Shown here in pieces: positions 1 through 6,140 of a stretch of 41,940 nt of DNA. Under the pieces are notes generated by a model that did no database searches, had not been told where the DNA came from, and was given only the letters and a program-made list of their open reading frames with translations. A program made the position numbers and the translations under genes. Position 1 is the stretch's first letter; every line of letters starts with the position of its first letter. The stretch comes from Candidatus Kuenenia stuttgartensis (GTDB taxonomy: Bacteria; Planctomycetota; Planctomycetia; Planctomycetales; Planctomycetaceae). The stretch is from assembly GCA_945861865.1 (NCBI GenBank), contig CAMAWN010000028.1, forward strand, positions 1 to 41,940, read 5' to 3'.

Positions 1-116
1 CGGACGTTGAACACGCCTGCGGCATCACCGACCTGCAAACCAGACTTCAGCTCTGCAGCCATCAGGCTCGCCGTTGCGATGAGCAACGCGAGCACAGGGG
101 CGCAGAATCGTCTCAT
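1..116 (-). CDS. N-terminal part of a small exported protein (cut by window edge)
   Basis: Only the first 38 codons are present; the gene runs off the left edge. The ATG at 116 is preceded by AAGGAG at normal spacing (RNA from about 131 to 126). The N-terminus is a clear signal peptide: MRRF, then a hydrophobic stretch ending in MAAEL. The mature start reads KSGLQVGDAAGVFNV. A '-xGxQVGD-' start of this kind recalls exported thioredoxin-fold proteins of planctomycetes, and the upstream neighbour is a peroxiredoxin with the same polarity 85 nt away, so a shared redox operon is plausible. The family assignment is inference from about 15 mature residues. The signal peptide and start are seen directly. 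Confidence 0.7.
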   Translation of the reverse strand, partial: MRRFCAPVLALLIATASLMAAELKSGLQVGDAAGVFNV

Positions 117-201: not shown

Positions 202-741
202 CTACTTCTTCTCGGCCTTCTCGATCTTCAGTTCCACCAACTTTTTGACGATCGCGTCGGCGTGAGCGGCCGCCTTCACCTCTTTGTCGACGAACGCCAC
301 CTTCCCGTCCTTGTCGACGTACACGGTCCAGCGTTTCGGAAAGCCTTTGTCGTCCGCGACCAGGCCGTACTCTTTGGCGGTCTTGCGAGACGGATCGCTC
401 AGCAGCGGGAAGTCGAGATTCAACTCGTCTGCGAACTCTTTGTTGTATTCCGGCGTGTCGCAACTGGCTCCGAAATAGGCCACGTTGAATTCACGCAGGG
501 CTTTGCCGCTCTCACGGAGCGACTTGCATTCGGCCGTTCAGCCACCGGTCTTGGCTTTGGGATACCAAGCCACCACGACCGCTTTCTTGCCTTTGAATTC
601 CGACAGCTTGTACGTCTTGCCGTCGGTCCCCTTCAGCTCCCAATTGGGAGCTTCGTCCCCGACCTTCGGCTCGGCCGCACCGGCGACCATTGTCACCGCC
701 GCCAGGCCGAGGCTCAGGCACACTGTCTGAAACCACTTCAT
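202..741 (-). CDS. Exported peroxiredoxin, probable selenoprotein (UGA at the catalytic position)
   Basis: Read through the TGA at 538-540, this is a 179-residue AhpC/TSA-Bcp-type peroxiredoxin, which would reduce peroxides outside the cytoplasm using a thiol or selenol. A signal peptide covers about residues 1-22 (ending VAGAAE), then a thioredoxin fold with GDEAPNWEL, VVVAWYPKA, the active-site segment TGG-U68-TAEC72, and downstream FGASCDTPEYN and PLLSDPSRKTAKEYG. Residue 68 is the position of the peroxidatic Cys in the 'TPGCT' motif of Bcp proteins; C72 could be the resolving Cys. Both halves are in the same frame and neither is a complete domain alone. The start at 741 has a strong AAGGAG. 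A SECIS-like hairpin follows the UGA. The alternative is a nonsense mutation or sequencing error, but a stop falling exactly on the catalytic residue makes selenocysteine the better explanation. Confidence 0.88.
505..540 (-). promoter_or_regulatory. Candidate bacterial SECIS element with its UGA codon
   Basis: In the minus-strand RNA the UGA (540-538) is followed by 14 nt, then a 7-bp stem GUCGCUC/GAGCGGC (one U-G pair) closing a 5-nt loop CGUGA (516-512). The UGA-to-loop distance is 21 nt and the second loop base is G followed by U. This fits the known bacterial pattern of a hairpin 16-37 nt downstream with an early loop G. The element lies wholly inside the coding sequence, as expected for bacteria. 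The structure is seen by eye and no folding energy was calculated. Confidence 0.7.
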
Positions 742-898
742 CGTTGTGACTCCTTGAAATGCCAGATGCGTTTCGCCCGCCGTTGCGAGCCACCGTCACG
801 ATACCAAGCCCAACCCAAGTTCAGCCAGTCCGGCCGAAAGCCGACGGGAGGCAGGATCGGGCGCGCGGCTCACGGCGGCCGTCCGGAACAACGAGTTA

Positions 899-3800
899 TT
901 ACCGCGGAATCTTGTGGAGTGTGAAAAAACCATACGCCGGGAAGAACGGCTTGTTGGGATCTGCGACGTCACGACACGAGATGTCATAAACGTAGTTTGG
1001 CGTCTTTCGCGAATCGACTTTCAACTTCGCTGTCCGGCCATCGTCGCTCAGTTCGACCGCCAGCACCGGGCAGCGATGCCGATCCGAATCGGGAGTCGCA
1101 TACGCTCCACCCCAGACACGCGTGTAGCCAGAGATCGAATAGTTTTCGCCGTTCGTCGCGCGAGCCCGATCAATCGGCGAAAAGAAGTCGATGTCGAAGC
1201 CGTCGCGAGTCGCTCGAATCTCGCGGATACCGTTGGGACGTTGGCCGTTCCCCTTGAGCTTCACGATGCTGCCGGTGTTCTGCCCGCCGGCCCAGCCGCT
1301 GTCGGCGATGCTGCCGATGTAGATTTCCCCCTTCGGACTGACGCCGCAGCAGAGCGGTCCTTCAAAGTTCGGCACGGTTCGCTGTCGCGGCGCGGCCGGT
1401 TTCCCGCCGCTGACTTCGATGGCATTCGTCGCTCCAAGCGGCGGGCCGGCTTTGTCGATTCCACGAACCAACTCGTCATCGGTCATCGAGAATGGATAGA
1501 CCGCTCCCTGCATCACATCGCCGACACGCTGCGTCGTGAAGCGTATCAGGAACCGCCCGTTGTACTCGCACCCGATGCCGTGCCCTTTCAGATCGGGATA
1601 GCCCTCTTTGCCCGTGAGGAAACACAGCCCATTCACGCTGCGAGTCCAGGGATGCGGAATCTGAATCGCCGCCTTCGTCTCCGGCGCGTCCTTGTCTTCC
1701 TCATGAGTCGCCGGCACCCCGTAATGCGCCCCCTCGACGAGATAGTTGATCTCGTTGAAGCAGTTCTGCACCCCCTGCTGATCCGAGACAAACACTTCGT
1801 CCCGCTCGTTGATCGCGAGGCCAGTCGGATAGCGGAAGGAGTGGCCGACGGGACTGATTGAGGTCTTGAAAAACGGACTGACCATCAACACTTTGCCGCG
1901 CCAGATCGCTTTGTTGGCAGGACGATTTTTGTCGGTGTAGTCGCTCGCAAGTCCCACAAAAAGTTGGCGTCGTGACGGCTCGAAGACGGGACTGGTCGTC
2001 CATTCGTGATAGTCGTCGGTGAATCCCCAGCCGCTCGCAAGCACCATCCGATGGTCGGCTCGCCCATCACCGTCCCGGTCGCGGAGCGAAACCAATTCGG
2101 GCTTGTGTGCGACGATCCATTGCAATGGGTAATTCGGACCACCTCCCGCGCCGACCAGTCCGTAGGGTGCGGTCAGACCCTCTTCGACCAAATGCAAACG
2201 ATCTTCGATTCCATCGGCATCAGCATCGGTCAGAGTGAAGACATGACCTTTGAGCGATGTCATCGCCATTTGGTCGAATTGCCACGCGAATCCGGTTGGC
2301 ATGATCGAGCTGTCGATCGGCAACTGGGTTCCTTCGAATCCGGGAACGCTGACGACATTCAACTTAGCGGCAACGGTGAGCGGGCGGGCGGGGGTCGCCA
2401 GCAGCGTTCGTTCGAGTGCCACTGAGTATCGAATCGTGAGGCGTTCGAGGGCGAACTTGGGTGACAGTGTTTCTTGTTCCAAGCGTAGCGGGCCGTGAGT
2501 GATCGTCGCATTGCCGATGCTCGGACTTCCCACTTGATCGTCGATCCAAATCTCGAATTCCTCTGCCGCCTGACGCGACGGCCAAATCAACTGCATCTGC
2601 CGCTCAATCCCCGAACGTTGTTGCCCCTCGATTGATTCCGAGAGACTTTGAAACTGGTCCCAAACGGTGATGGTCAGCGGAGTCCCATCGGCTCCCTTCC
2701 CGTCACTGCCGGGGAAGTGCAAGACATAGTTCAGCTTCAAAACTTTGTCCTGCGATTCATACAGCACCAGCTTCTGCAATTCACCATAAACCTTGGGTGA
2801 GGGTGAAGTGCGGTCGCGACGTCGGAGTTGGACTTGGGTTGAAGTGAGTTGGCTGACCACATTTACGCCAGCCATTTCCCAGACCCAACGCTTGCCGACC
2901 GTTTGTTGGCGTGCGAAGTCGCCGAAAGTCCATTGGCGGATCGAGGCGGTGTCGAGGTCGAACAAGAACGAGTGGCCGTTGTCGAAGCCAACCGCGAACG
3001 AACGCGGCACATTGCCGCCGCCGAGTTCCTTCGGCAGCGAAAACACATCGCGGACGATGCGTGGCTGCTCGCCGGGGTTGACCACCCAAAGTTGTTCGAC
3101 GTTGGCGGGGTTCGTCGGCGGTTGGAAGTTCGGGTCGTTGAGCGCTTGCCACAGCGCGGCGTGTTGCTTTGCGAGATCGCCGTCGAGCACTCCTGCGACC
3201 GGGCGGTTGTATTGCGGCATCTCGACGCCGGGGATGACTCGCAGCGGTGAGGCGATCCAGCGGAAAAAGAACTCCGGCCGGAGGTGTTTGCCGAGCATCT
3301 TCAAATCCGACCCGCGAGCGCCGAGCGCGACTTGCTTCGGCTCGTAGTCGCCGATCTTGTGACACGCGATGCAGCTCCAGCCGCGAACGCCGGTGAGCGC
3401 TTGGCCGGCAAGGTGCGTTTGACGAGTTTCGTCTGCTTTTTTCCTCGCCGCCTCGCCGTCTCGCCGCCTCTCCTCGCGAAGCGGAATTCGATCATGCTCC
3501 ACAAAGTACTGCGTCAGCATCGCCAACTCGTCCGGCGAGTGCTTGAACTTCGGCATCCGCACTTTGAGCCACGGCATTCGGATCGGCTGGCGTTCGCCGC
3601 GTACGGCGATGCCTAAGGCTTCGTCGAGCAGTTTGTCGCCGACGGCATTCAGCGACGGCGGGACGAGCGACGGAGCTTGGCCGTTCAAGTTCTTGTCGAG
3701 CTTCGCGACTTGGGCCGCCATCTTGCCGAAGCCGCCGAGGCCGTGGCGCGAGTGACACGCCAAGCAACCTTTGTGTTCGAGCAATCGCTGGCCGCGCGCG

Positions 3801-5248
3801 AACGAACTGAGCGGCGATACCTTCACGTTCCAGCGCGAGGTGAGATACGCCTTGATCGCTTCGCGATTCAGGTTCGTTCCGAAATACGGGCGAGGGCGTT
3901 CGACAAAGTCACGCTCGGCGAGACAGCTCTTCGACCAATCGGCCACCGGCTGTGACAAGTCGGACGCCGGCTTCTTGAAGCGCACAGTCTTGTCATCGGC
4001 GAAGCGATGACAGGCGGCGCAGCGACGCTCGACAACGACTTTGCGACCACGTTCGACCCACGCTTTGTAGTGCGTCTGGTCTTTGTTCGACTTGAAGTTG
4101 TTCATGGTCTTCCAATGAGCCGTGAGTGCCGCTGGCGTCAGCGGCGGCGGGTCTTTGGTGTCGGGCTCCGACCTGAGATTCCACAACGCGAGCGCCAGTT
4201 GATTTCGCTCCGCGTCTGACAAATTGAAGACCGGCATCCGGTGCTCGGCGTTCAATCGCTCCGGCTTCGCGAGCCACGTCACGAGCCATGGCAACGTCCG
4301 TCGCTCGCCAACATCGCTAAGGTTCGGCCCCGCCAACGGCGACGGACTGCTGCCACCCAACTCGCCGACTCGATGACACGCGAGACAGCCGGTCGAACGG
4401 AGCAAGACTTCCCCCTTGCGCCGTTCGGTTTCGAGATCGGCCTCTTTCACCGACTTTGGCTTATCAAGCTCCACCGGCTGCGATTGGTCGAACAGAAACG
4501 CCACGACCGCGTCATGTGACGGATCGTGCAGCCCGAACCTCGCGAACGATCGGTCTGAGTCCAACGGGCCCAGCCCAAAATGATTCGTCACGAGATCATC
4601 GGGAAAGCTGGCCGTCGCGAAGTGTTTCAGCGACGGCCCCGGCGGCGGTGCATCGGCTCCTTCGCGTTGATGGCAGCGTCCGCAGCGGAACGCTTCAAAT
4701 TGCTTGCGGCCGAGTTCGATGAGGGCGAGGTCGTCGCGCGGCTGGTCGTGAAACAACAACTCTGGCGGCAGCGGTTCGAGGCTGAAGGCATCGGACGACC
4801 AGAAGAGTTTCAGTTGCGCGGCCGGTTCCGTTTTGCGGAACGTCACGACGAGCGGCCGCTCGCCGAAGCCCGGCGAAAACTCGTCGCCGCTGATCCACTG
4901 CGGCTGTTTCGCTGAGCCATGCAGCACGCGCCGGCCATCGAGTTCGACCGTGACATCCCCTTGCACGAAGGCGTGCAGCCGATGCTGGGCCTCCTGCCGC
5001 ACGAGCAAAAACCCGCGCCACGTCGCCTCAAACCGCTCGGCCGAAAGCCGCGCATCCGGAGCCGCCTCGTCCCAAGCAAACGCCACGTCCGGGTCGATCC
5101 GCGTGACCGCCCGCGCGCCCACGCGATATTCGGCGACCAGTCCCGGCCGGAATTCTTCGTCGTCATCGTCCGGCGGGGCGGCGAACAACAGGCTCGTGAG
5201 AAACTGCGGAACGAGGAGAGCCGACAGCAACCATCGAGCAGTGGTCAT
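899..5248 (-). CDS. Large exported PA14 / pentahaem cytochrome c / propeller protein
   Basis: A 1449-residue protein with a signal peptide (residues about 1-24), a PA14-like beta domain (about 33-165) and five CxxCH haem c motifs at about C189, C288, C410, C495 and C626. The C-terminal half resembles the propeller of planctomycete glucose/sorbosone-dehydrogenase-like proteins (segments with ADADGIED, RDGDGRADH, YPTGLAINERDEVFVSDQQG). Such multidomain proteins are typical of Planctomycetes and are presumed periplasmic electron-transfer enzymes acting on carbohydrate; the substrate cannot be read from sequence. A start at 5248 is chosen because it begins a good signal peptide, has GGAG upstream and avoids overlap with purQ, which ends 16 nt before; a longer frame to 5317 exists. 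Residues about 590-607 (REERRRDGEAARKK) are a low-complexity insert from a GCGGCGAG-rich repeat at about 3430-3480. Confidence 0.9.
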   Translation of the reverse strand: MTTARWLLSALLVPQFLTSLLFAAPPDDDDEEFRPGLVAEYRVGARAVTRIDPDVAFAWDEAAPDARLSAERFEATWRGFLLVRQEAQHRLHAFVQGDVTVELDGRRVLHGSAKQPQWISGDEFSPGFGERPLVVTFRKTEPAAQLKLFWSSDAFSLEPLPPELLFHDQPRDDLALIELGRKQFEAFRCGRCHQREGADAPPPGPSLKHFATASFPDDLVTNHFGLGPLDSDRSFARFGLHDPSHDAVVAFLFDQSQPVELDKPKSVKEADLETERRKGEVLLRSTGCLACHRVGELGGSSPSPLAGPNLSDVGERRTLPWLVTWLAKPERLNAEHRMPVFNLSDAERNQLALALWNLRSEPDTKDPPPLTPAALTAHWKTMNNFKSNKDQTHYKAWVERGRKVVVERRCAACHRFADDKTVRFKKPASDLSQPVADWSKSCLAERDFVERPRPYFGTNLNREAIKAYLTSRWNVKVSPLSSFARGQRLLEHKGCLACHSRHGLGGFGKMAAQVAKLDKNLNGQAPSLVPPSLNAVGDKLLDEALGIAVRGERQPIRMPWLKVRMPKFKHSPDELAMLTQYFVEHDRIPLREERRRDGEAARKKADETRQTHLAGQALTGVRGWSCIACHKIGDYEPKQVALGARGSDLKMLGKHLRPEFFFRWIASPLRVIPGVEMPQYNRPVAGVLDGDLAKQHAALWQALNDPNFQPPTNPANVEQLWVVNPGEQPRIVRDVFSLPKELGGGNVPRSFAVGFDNGHSFLFDLDTASIRQWTFGDFARQQTVGKRWVWEMAGVNVVSQLTSTQVQLRRRDRTSPSPKVYGELQKLVLYESQDKVLKLNYVLHFPGSDGKGADGTPLTITVWDQFQSLSESIEGQQRSGIERQMQLIWPSRQAAEEFEIWIDDQVGSPSIGNATITHGPLRLEQETLSPKFALERLTIRYSVALERTLLATPARPLTVAAKLNVVSVPGFEGTQLPIDSSIMPTGFAWQFDQMAMTSLKGHVFTLTDADADGIEDRLHLVEEGLTAPYGLVGAGGGPNYPLQWIVAHKPELVSLRDRDGDGRADHRMVLASGWGFTDDYHEWTTSPVFEPSRRQLFVGLASDYTDKNRPANKAIWRGKVLMVSPFFKTSISPVGHSFRYPTGLAINERDEVFVSDQQGVQNCFNEINYLVEGAHYGVPATHEEDKDAPETKAAIQIPHPWTRSVNGLCFLTGKEGYPDLKGHGIGCEYNGRFLIRFTTQRVGDVMQGAVYPFSMTDDELVRGIDKAGPPLGATNAIEVSGGKPAAPRQRTVPNFEGPLCCGVSPKGEIYIGSIADSGWAGGQNTGSIVKLKGNGQRPNGIREIRATRDGFDIDFFSPIDRARATNGENYSISGYTRVWGGAYATPDSDRHRCPVLAVELSDDGRTAKLKVDSRKTPNYVYDISCRDVADPNKPFFPAYGFFTLHKIPR

Positions 5249-5264
5249 GACCGCACTCCAGGGT

Positions 5265-6140
5265 CTACCCAAAGTATTCGACGGCGTTGCGGAAGAGACG
5301 CATGCCGGCCCCTTCACCGCGCAGGCCGAGGCGGGTCCAGTGTGGATGTTGCGTGGCGAACAGAAAGCGTTCGGGGTGCGGCATCAGGCCGAGCACTCGG
5401 CCGCTGGGATCGCTCAGCCCCGCGAGATTCGCCATCGAACCGTTCGGATTGATTGGGTACGGCAGCAGTTCGGTCTCCCCACTAGCACGACGCGCCAGCG
5501 AGTGGTTGCCCTCGCCGTTACCGCCCGACCCCTCGCTGGCGCGTCGGGCTGGTGTCCCCGGATGCTCAACGTACGTCAGCGCGCATTGGCCGTTCTGTTG
5601 CCAGCGGTCGAGCGTGGCGGGATCGCGGACGACCAGCTTGCCTTCGCCGTGCGCGATCGGGACGTCGAGTTCGTCGATGCCTCGCAGAAAGACGTTCTTC
5701 GTGCTGCCAACTTTCAGACGCACCCACAGCGCGGTGTATTTGCCGTTGTCGTTCCAGGTGAGCGTCGCGTCGGCGGGCACGTCAGGCTGCGGCGGCCAAG
5801 TCGTCGCTCCGCCGGGCAGGATGCCGGCCTTCAGCAGCACTTGGAATCCGTTGCAGATGCCGAGCATCAACGTGTCGCGTTGCAAGAACTCGCCGAGCGT
5901 CTCGGCCAGATGGCTGCGGAGGTGGCTGGCGAAGATGACTCCGGAGCCGATGTCGTCACCGTAGCTGAACCCACCGGGAACGCACAGCATTTGATAGTCG
6001 GCCAGCGACTTCGGGTTCTCCAGCAGTTGGAACAGATGCACGCGGTCGGCGGTCGCACCGCAGGTCTCGAAGGCGTAGGCCGTCTCGACGTCGCAGTTCG
6101 TTCCCGGGGCACGCAGCACACACACGCGAGGAGCAACCAT
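5265..6140 (-). CDS. purQ: Phosphoribosylformylglycinamidine synthase, glutaminase subunit PurQ
   Basis: PurQ is the class I glutamine amidotransferase that supplies ammonia for the FGAR to FGAM step of purine synthesis. It is recognised by RAPGTNCD near the N-terminus, PGGFSYGDDIGSG, the nucleophile loop MLGICNGFQ (Cys about residue 96) and the C-terminal MPHPERF with the catalytic His/Glu. A start at ATG 6140 is preferred (GGTGA about 8 nt upstream); a GTG four codons earlier at 6152 is possible. At 291 residues it is longer than the roughly 230-residue Bacillus type. Part of the excess is about 26 residues (196-221, PARRASEG...SLARRAS) encoded by a palindromic repeat inserted in frame. It lies between recA and the PA14-cytochrome gene on the same strand; no other pur gene is nearby. 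Confidence 0.95.
   Translation of the reverse strand: MVAPRVCVLRAPGTNCDVETAYAFETCGATADRVHLFQLLENPKSLADYQMLCVPGGFSYGDDIGSGVIFASHLRSHLAETLGEFLQRDTLMLGICNGFQVLLKAGILPGGATTWPPQPDVPADATLTWNDNGKYTALWVRLKVGSTKNVFLRGIDELDVPIAHGEGKLVVRDPATLDRWQQNGQCALTYVEHPGTPARRASEGSGGNGEGNHSLARRASGETELLPYPINPNGSMANLAGLSDPSGRVLGLMPHPERFLFATQHPHWTRLGLRGEGAGMRLFRNAVEYFG
5480..5554. repeat. Palindromic repeat (family A) translated inside purQ
   Basis: Imperfect inverted repeat: a left arm at about 5480-5506 and right arm at about 5528-5554 pair over roughly 27 bp with about four mismatches; the shared core is CGCGCCAGCGAG. A second copy lies at 32742-32809 inside the BatA-like gene. It encodes PARRASEG and SLARRAS in the purQ frame with no stop. 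Two copies in unrelated genes show that it is a dispersed element rather than part of PurQ. Confidence 0.85.

Follow-up and report, generated by a model that had tools for sequence, protein, structure and literature searches.

A probable exported Sec-peroxiredoxin with a candidate SECIS hairpin and a neighboring putative selenoprotein gene in Candidatus Kuenenia stuttgartensis

The peroxiredoxin gene and its family

The window, i.e., the whole 41,940-nt stretch of DNA analyzed here, carries near its first base a minus-strand gene for a peroxiredoxin of the AhpC/TSA family, followed by the beginning of a second gene (Table 1). We found that the peroxiredoxin frame is open throughout once a single TGA (538–540) is read through. 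The original prediction for this DNA had described a frame continuous across that one TGA, a UGA at the Bcp active-site position (TGG-U-TAEC) with a cysteine four residues on, and a 7-bp stem with loop CGUGA beginning 14 nt after the UGA, all of which we recovered. The interval that it had assigned (505–741) covers the gene from its start to the hairpin, but the gene itself continues to position 202. A gene caller that ends at the UGA would shorten the product to 67 residues.

Table 1. Features at the peroxiredoxin locus (window coordinates)
Feature	Position	Strand	Remarks and basis
Putative Sec-peroxiredoxin gene (AhpC/TSA family)	741..202	minus	179 residues + TAA, Sec at 68; read-through translation
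TAA stop of the Sec-peroxiredoxin gene	204–202	minus	
In-frame UGA, codon 68, peroxidatic position	540–538	minus	translation and aligned orthologue codons
Codon of C72, likely resolving cysteine (U-x-x-x-C)	526..528	minus	invariant in alignment A1
Codon of R137, likely catalytic arginine	331..333	minus	invariant in alignment A1
Signal-peptide-like N-terminus, residues 1–22, AGA end before AEPK	676..741	minus	by eye
AAGGAG, ribosome-binding-site-like, upstream of the ATG	750..755	minus	by eye
Candidate bacterial SECIS hairpin, stem GUCGCUC/GAGCGGC of 7 bp, loop CGUGA	523–505	minus	folding and comparison
Downstream gene, first 38 codons, interrupted by the contig end at base 1	116..3	minus	42 bases identical to L018

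The active-site stretch of the predicted protein reads P61-K-A-K-T65-G-G-U68-T-A-E-C72. In alignment A1, which holds 27 sequences chosen from the 44 orthologues described below, with Sec and Cys forms together, P61, T65, position 68 (Sec or Cys), C72 and R137 are all invariant. We take C72 to be the resolving cysteine and R137 to be the catalytic arginine, both roles being carried over from the family. Signal-peptide-like N-termini, judged by eye, occur in the orthologues as well as in the window protein, and the peroxiredoxin with Sec68 is therefore probably exported. Upstream of it, on the same strand, lies a large ORF (899–5317, 1,472 aa) with several CxxCH-like heme motifs seen by eye; cytochrome-c-containing proteins of this type are common in planctomycetes.

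As for family membership, the window protein matches PF00578 (AhpC-TSA) with 115.2 bits against a cut-off of 26 (E = 2.4e-33) and PF08534 with 79.9 bits (E = 2.1e-22). Its best match in the PDB is 3drn (E = 1.4e-19), which is named a Bcp homologue, while the second, 2ywn, is named only peroxiredoxin-like and the third, 3hjp, is Bcp-4. The best NCBIfam matches were to NF006960/PRK09437 (Bcp) and NF053650 (PrxQ), at 89.4 bits (equivalog cut-off, 140) and 72 bits (cut-off, 260), respectively, and the PrxU equivalog NF040737, which we take to stand for the Eubacterium acidaminophilum enzyme, was matched at 38.1 bits, far under its cut-off of 270. Because the protein scores under the NCBIfam cut-offs for Bcp, PrxQ and PrxU alike, it is, from its sequence, best regarded as belonging to a separate Bcp-like group. 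The Bcp naming of the original prediction thus holds in the sense of Bcp-like, but the protein stays below the threshold of the Bcp family proper. In a tree, five Bcp/PrxQ rows were split from the family of the window peroxiredoxin at a branch with a support of 100. The motifs differ too: the window family has U/CTxEC and the PrxQ rows C/UTxEAC, each with close variants. In Bcp/PrxQ enzymes the second cysteine lies five residues on, whereas C72 here lies four residues after U68.

Sec-peroxiredoxin (Prx, COG1225 Bcp, TxxU) is an established kind of selenoprotein, with the enzyme of Eubacterium acidaminophilum cited as the characterized case; the available text of PMC13188914 gives the motif PxxxTxxU for Sec-peroxiredoxins and counts the PF00578, TxxU family as experimentally verified. 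Residues P61, T65 and U68 of the window protein fit this motif. With this kind (Prx; COG1225 Bcp or PF00578) the window protein shares the AhpC/TSA domain, a predicted peroxidatic Sec, PxxxTxxU and the existence of Cys homologues; it differs in its signal-peptide-like N-terminus and in having a cysteine four residues on. On these grounds, the window gene is a new predicted Sec-peroxiredoxin within an already known kind. A second Sec-peroxiredoxin appeared in a single genome (G019): this gene (L064) is of the PrxQ type, has the motif TPGUTTEAC with TGA at the equivalent codon and, unlike the window family, sits on another branch, grouped with Cys PrxQ rows.

Planctomycetes P1 and P2 from Porphyra, for which PMC4807772 reports selenoprotein candidates, resemble the host in having a full set of Sec-insertion genes, according to the available part of that paper. 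The terms peroxiredoxin, Bcp, AhpC and redoxin are absent from its main text, to which the comparison was confined, table S9 with the candidates lying outside it. Neither of the word stems planctomycet and verrucomicrob turns up in the available text of PMC13188914 and PMC9312934. Likewise, neither the peroxiredoxin group nor the neighboring gene was described in any title or abstract beginning among the papers listed on selenoproteins of Planctomycetes/Verrucomicrobia, PrxQ and new bacterial families, a scope that takes in titles and the first part of abstracts.

Codon 68 and the hairpin in homologues

The host genome (6.24 Mb in 351 contigs, 90% complete) contains selA (523.7 vs. a cut-off of 268), selB (336.9 vs. 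242), selD (302 vs. 125) and tRNA-Sec (72.7 bits vs. an Rfam cut-off of 47), the last also being found by ARAGORN with anticodon tca. The four components that the organism had been expected to possess, i.e., selA, selB, selC (here tRNA-Sec) and selD, are thus all represented over their cut-offs. Among 14 well-known control genomes, matches over cut-off numbered two for selB, one for selA, two for selD and five for tRNA-Sec (three under stricter filters). The host selD (L069:316–2541) is part of a 741-residue reading frame, the N-terminal half of which resembles, by eye, an FAD/NAD oxidoreductase. Apart from codon 68, TGA serves as an ordinary stop, closing 17 of the 28 long non-overlapping ORFs of the window, some of which may not be genes.

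We searched 150 genomes of the order, sampled evenly out of a larger group, and 44 of them contain a close orthologue (at least 166 bits; next match, 95 bits). Codon 68 is TGA in 27 of these and a Cys codon (TGC or TGT) in the other 17; contig ends truncate two of the TGA orthologues (L021 and L022) on their upstream side. The TGA is shared with 26 genomes besides the host, down to ~50% protein identity. In a wider collection of contigs, the best 80 of 309 confirmed loci comprised 53 with TGA and 27 with Cys at this codon. Their labels, which come from MAG records and are in some cases rough, name Planctomycetota, Verrucomicrobiota, two Acidobacteriota and one only “bacterium”, and some of the records are the same genomes as in the order sample. 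Among named relatives, planctomycete MAG records come nearest, at 97% identity (labeled Candidatus Kuenenia) and 94% identity (labeled Planctomyces). Reading position 68 in homologues, a check proposed along with the original prediction, thus returned only Sec or Cys, both in the 44 loci of the order and in the best 80 of 309. A well-supported group of predicted Sec-peroxiredoxins is thereby added in Planctomycetota and Verrucomicrobiota, together with the two Acidobacteriota records.

A selA match is present in every one of the 27 TGA genomes, compared with 35 of the 123 others (Fisher p = 6e-13, a value that ignores kinship), and selA was also matched in 13 of the 17 Cys-form genomes. At the thresholds used, selB was matched in 26 of the 27 TGA genomes (all but G084) and tRNA-Sec in 23 (all but G146, G061, G096 and G112), the five genomes that lack one or the other match being drafts of 170 to 610 contigs. 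Beyond the TGA, most differences between the window gene and five same-genus relatives fall on third codon positions (11/13, 25/35, 33/60, 29/44 and 32/58), with synonymous codon changes being barely more numerous than the others in two of the five (25 vs. 21 and 24 vs. 18).

The hairpin starts 14 nt and its loop 21 nt past the UGA, and it folds with −9.6 kcal/mol alone and −11.1 kcal/mol in a 39-nt context. In the available text of PMC13188914, the model of the bacterial SECIS has a loop of 3–9 nt, a stem of 4–16 bp, 16–37 nt from UGA to loop, a minimum free energy of at most −7.5 kcal/mol and a G at loop position 1 or 2 with G or U as the next base. The window hairpin lies within this model throughout, with a 5-nt loop, a 7-bp stem, a G in second place followed by U, a distance of 21 nt and −11.1 kcal/mol. 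Compared with shuffled sequences, the bare 19-nt hairpin is fairly stable (z = −2.62; 5 of 200 shuffles fold as well), but the 39-nt stretch from the UGA is not exceptional (z = −0.89; 42 of 200), and folding energy alone was therefore dropped as evidence for a SECIS. Mean energies over the 54 nt after the codon were similar, at −12.9 in 28 Sec genes and −12.2 in 21 Cys genes folded (PrxQ rows included).

It is comparison, rather than folding, that decides the case for a Sec reading. We pooled the 44 loci of the order with the best 80 of the wider collection, giving 124 loci that encode 90 different proteins, 58 of the Sec and 32 of the Cys form. An unbroken inner stem of six pairs is present in 56 of the 58 distinct Sec genes (the exceptions being L080 and L144) but in just 3 of the 32 distinct Cys genes. 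Within the order, 95.7% of stem cells pair in the 27 Sec sequences (20 distinct; alignment A3) compared with 33.6 to 60.7% in slid versions of the stem, whereas the 52.1% found for the 17 Cys sequences (alignment A4) falls inside the range of their slid versions (35.3 to 65.5%). The stem covaries in A3: none of 500 shuffles attained its 15 cells changed on both sides or its covariation score of 0.290. On two measures out of the five applied, A3 did not go beyond shuffles (pairs changed on both sides, 53/500; further pair types, 410/500).

The loop tells the same story at the level of a single codon. Among the 58 distinct Sec genes, the loop codon is CGT in 53, GGT (Gly) in three and CGG in two, so that CGT accounts for 53 of the 55 that carry Arg, compared with 7 of 25 Arg-bearing distinct Cys genes; a further seven distinct Cys genes have Lys there. 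Counted within the order, CGT is present in 25 of 27 Sec genes (GGT in the other two) vs. 3 of 14 Arg-bearing Cys genes. Because CGT is nearly fixed in the loop of Sec genes but is used in only 7 of 25 Arg-bearing Cys genes and makes up just 9 of the 70 Arg codons located farther downstream in Sec genes of the order, the constraint on the loop is, by this comparison, one that acts on the RNA and not only on the residue.

Three distinct Cys genes keep the whole inner stem, namely L087 (TGC), L091 (TGT) and L135 (TGT), as expected after a single change of TGA to TGC or TGT. Their genomes all have a selB match over cut-off; the selB search was run in 10 genomes, with a match in each and with nine over cut-off. 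We also built a quick tree from 94 rows (89 of the family plus five Bcp/PrxQ rows as outgroup), from which identical proteins and the upstream-shortened rows L021, L022, L074 and L075 were omitted. It calls for 17 Sec/Cys changes among the family rows; its resolution is poor, with 40 of 91 inner branches open, and the starred branches force just three changes. The Sec label is more clustered on it than in 500 of 500 shuffles. Repeated Sec/Cys exchange in this peroxiredoxin family is thus likely. With 58 distinct Sec forms, 32 distinct Cys forms and three stem-keeping Cys genes, the family is naturally suited to the question of why Sec persists or disappears.

Sec insertion and alternative readings

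Taken together, these data make us strongly confident that the window gene encodes an exported AhpC/TSA (Bcp-like) peroxiredoxin whose peroxidatic Sec68 is inserted by means of the UGA and the SECIS hairpin. The original prediction of a real selenoprotein is supported by the 27 TGA orthologues out of 44, the Sec machinery and the SECIS comparison. In the mechanism that we propose, SelA, SelD and tRNA-Sec of the host would make Sec-tRNA-Sec, which would be loaded on SelB; the hairpin 14 nt past the UGA would recruit SelB, and Sec would enter at residue 68 in place of termination. The peroxiredoxin would then be exported after synthesis. Presumably acting as a peroxidase, Sec68 would be activated by Thr65 and Arg137 and reduce peroxide, Cys72 would resolve the selenenic acid to a selenenylsulfide, and an extracytoplasmic thiol or selenol partner would reduce the latter.

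We weighed this reading against several others. Were the TGA a true stop, the gene would be a pseudogene or a 67-residue fragment with the later frame as a relic, and the fact that TGA is the commonest stop of the long window ORFs (17/28) would suit this; it is nevertheless extremely unlikely, given that 27 of 44 orthologues have TGA at the same codon, that differences after the TGA are biased to third positions and that the host has the Sec machinery. A sequencing or assembly error hiding a true TGT or TGC is scarcely credible. The window is indeed one contig of a 351-contig, 90% complete draft, but the TGA recurs at codon 68 in 26 other genomes, down to ~50% protein identity, and the SECIS stem goes with it (56/58 Sec vs. 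3/32 Cys). We give next to no credence to a genome-wide reassignment of UGA to an ordinary amino acid such as Trp or Gly, for which we found no support in the data: TGA ends 17 of the 28 long non-overlapping ORFs, each of the 17 orthologues of the order without TGA at codon 68 has a Cys codon there, and tRNA-Sec is present in the host. Pseudogene, sequencing error and code change were accordingly rejected on the shared TGA, the third-position bias, the retention of the stem and the TGA stops.

Two further readings accept Sec at codon 68 and differ on what surrounds it. The hairpin might be a by-product of the coding sequence (S-L/F-R-x-S/N-G), with Sec inserted through another element. The residues it encodes are partly conserved in Cys homologues and the fold of the 39-nt stretch is unexceptional, as this would have it, but the retention of the inner stem in 56 of 58 distinct Sec genes as against 3 of 32 distinct Cys genes, and a loop codon nearly fixed as CGT in Sec genes only, make it very unlikely. 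Alternatively, the product could be a real selenoprotein but no peroxidase, serving as a thiol-disulfide oxidoreductase or a redox relay on the peroxiredoxin fold. The available text of PMC13188914 does hold a separate Sec family of “Prx-like thiol:disulfide oxidoreductase” (PF00578, UxxC or UxxU). This second alternative seems to us unlikely, as PxxxTxxU and the invariant Arg fit peroxiredoxins and the spacing in the window protein is UxxxC, not UxxC.

The downstream gene and its family

For the host copy of the interrupted gene that comes after the peroxiredoxin, the UGA-bearing part was sought in the assembly and not found. The last 42 bases of this copy within the window are identical to L018 (L018:2126–2671), whose product has 182 residues, a signal-peptide-like start and U54, with the sequence around the in-frame TGA reading ...DITGPNKDKTLCYRURYG.... 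Other adjacent copies of the same genus read CYRU in eight of nine cases (L018, L019, L020, L021, L022, L026, L027 and L032) and CYRC in L025. We infer Sec in the host's own downstream copy because of the identity of the 42 bases with L018 and the CYRU reading in eight of the nine same-genus adjacent copies. The host also has a non-adjacent paralogue (L173), which reads CYRC.

Matches to the family of this downstream gene occur in 137 of the 150 genomes of the order (E up to 1e-6). Among the 43 distinct family proteins read, the second Cys position of the LCYRC motif is TGA in 23 and Cys in 20, and one of these 20 Cys forms (L188, in genome G044) has TGA at the first Cys instead (UYRC). Judging from these sequences, either cysteine of the motif can be replaced by Sec, with CYRU in 23 distinct proteins and UYRC in one.

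Searches with 35 aligned family members gave a best Pfam E-value of 0.0018 (14 families with E ≤ 0.1, none in more than five members) and a best NCBIfam E-value of 0.0041 (12 families, again none in more than five members). The comparison with the 119 prokaryotic families of PMC13188914, in its available text, covered those with Pfam or NCBIfam models and not those under cd or PTHR identifiers. Matches to listed families were AhpC-TSA in one member (E = 0.0071) and deiodinase_rel in two members, at 12.6 bits vs. 250 for member 1. Since no Pfam or NCBIfam match was better than 0.0018 or 0.0041, respectively, and none extended to more than five members, the downstream family would therefore fall outside those selenoprotein families of table 1 in PMC13188914 that have a Pfam or NCBIfam model. 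The best PDB sequence match for the family is chance-like (E = 0.51). In a comparison aimed at a thioredoxin-like fold, hhalign against a Prx profile gave a probability of 82%, but over a span of 67 columns with the signal peptide among them. The downstream gene in close relatives is apparently a second exported selenoprotein of an undescribed family.

A SECIS in the downstream gene is hinted at by codon use: the conserved Arg position is CGT in 20 of 23 Sec proteins vs. 8 of 20 Cys proteins (p = 0.003, ignoring kinship). RNAalifold on 17 distinct Sec sequences returned only a 3-bp consensus with near-zero energy.

In 15 of the 44 loci, not counting the interrupted copy of the window, a co-oriented copy of the downstream gene comes after the peroxiredoxin. 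A first motif search of the flanks, with a pattern that barred Sec at the second Cys, had found the neighbor at two loci only and was replaced. Among the 39 loci with at least 700 nt downstream, 14 have an adjacent copy and no adjacent copy was found in 25, making an obligate pair less likely. All four combinations of Sec and Cys in peroxiredoxin and neighbor occur, Sec-peroxiredoxin with a Cys neighbor being seen once (L037), so each gene switches between Sec and Cys on its own. We lean, with moderate confidence, towards an exported redox pair of two selenoproteins, in which the neighbor family would be new with respect to the 119 families of PMC13188914 (in its available text) and may serve the Sec-peroxiredoxin as its reductant or partner outside the cytoplasm. 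More speculatively, the LCYRU product could be a reducing partner or a member of the same pathway. The neighboring gene points in any event to an undescribed selenoprotein family.
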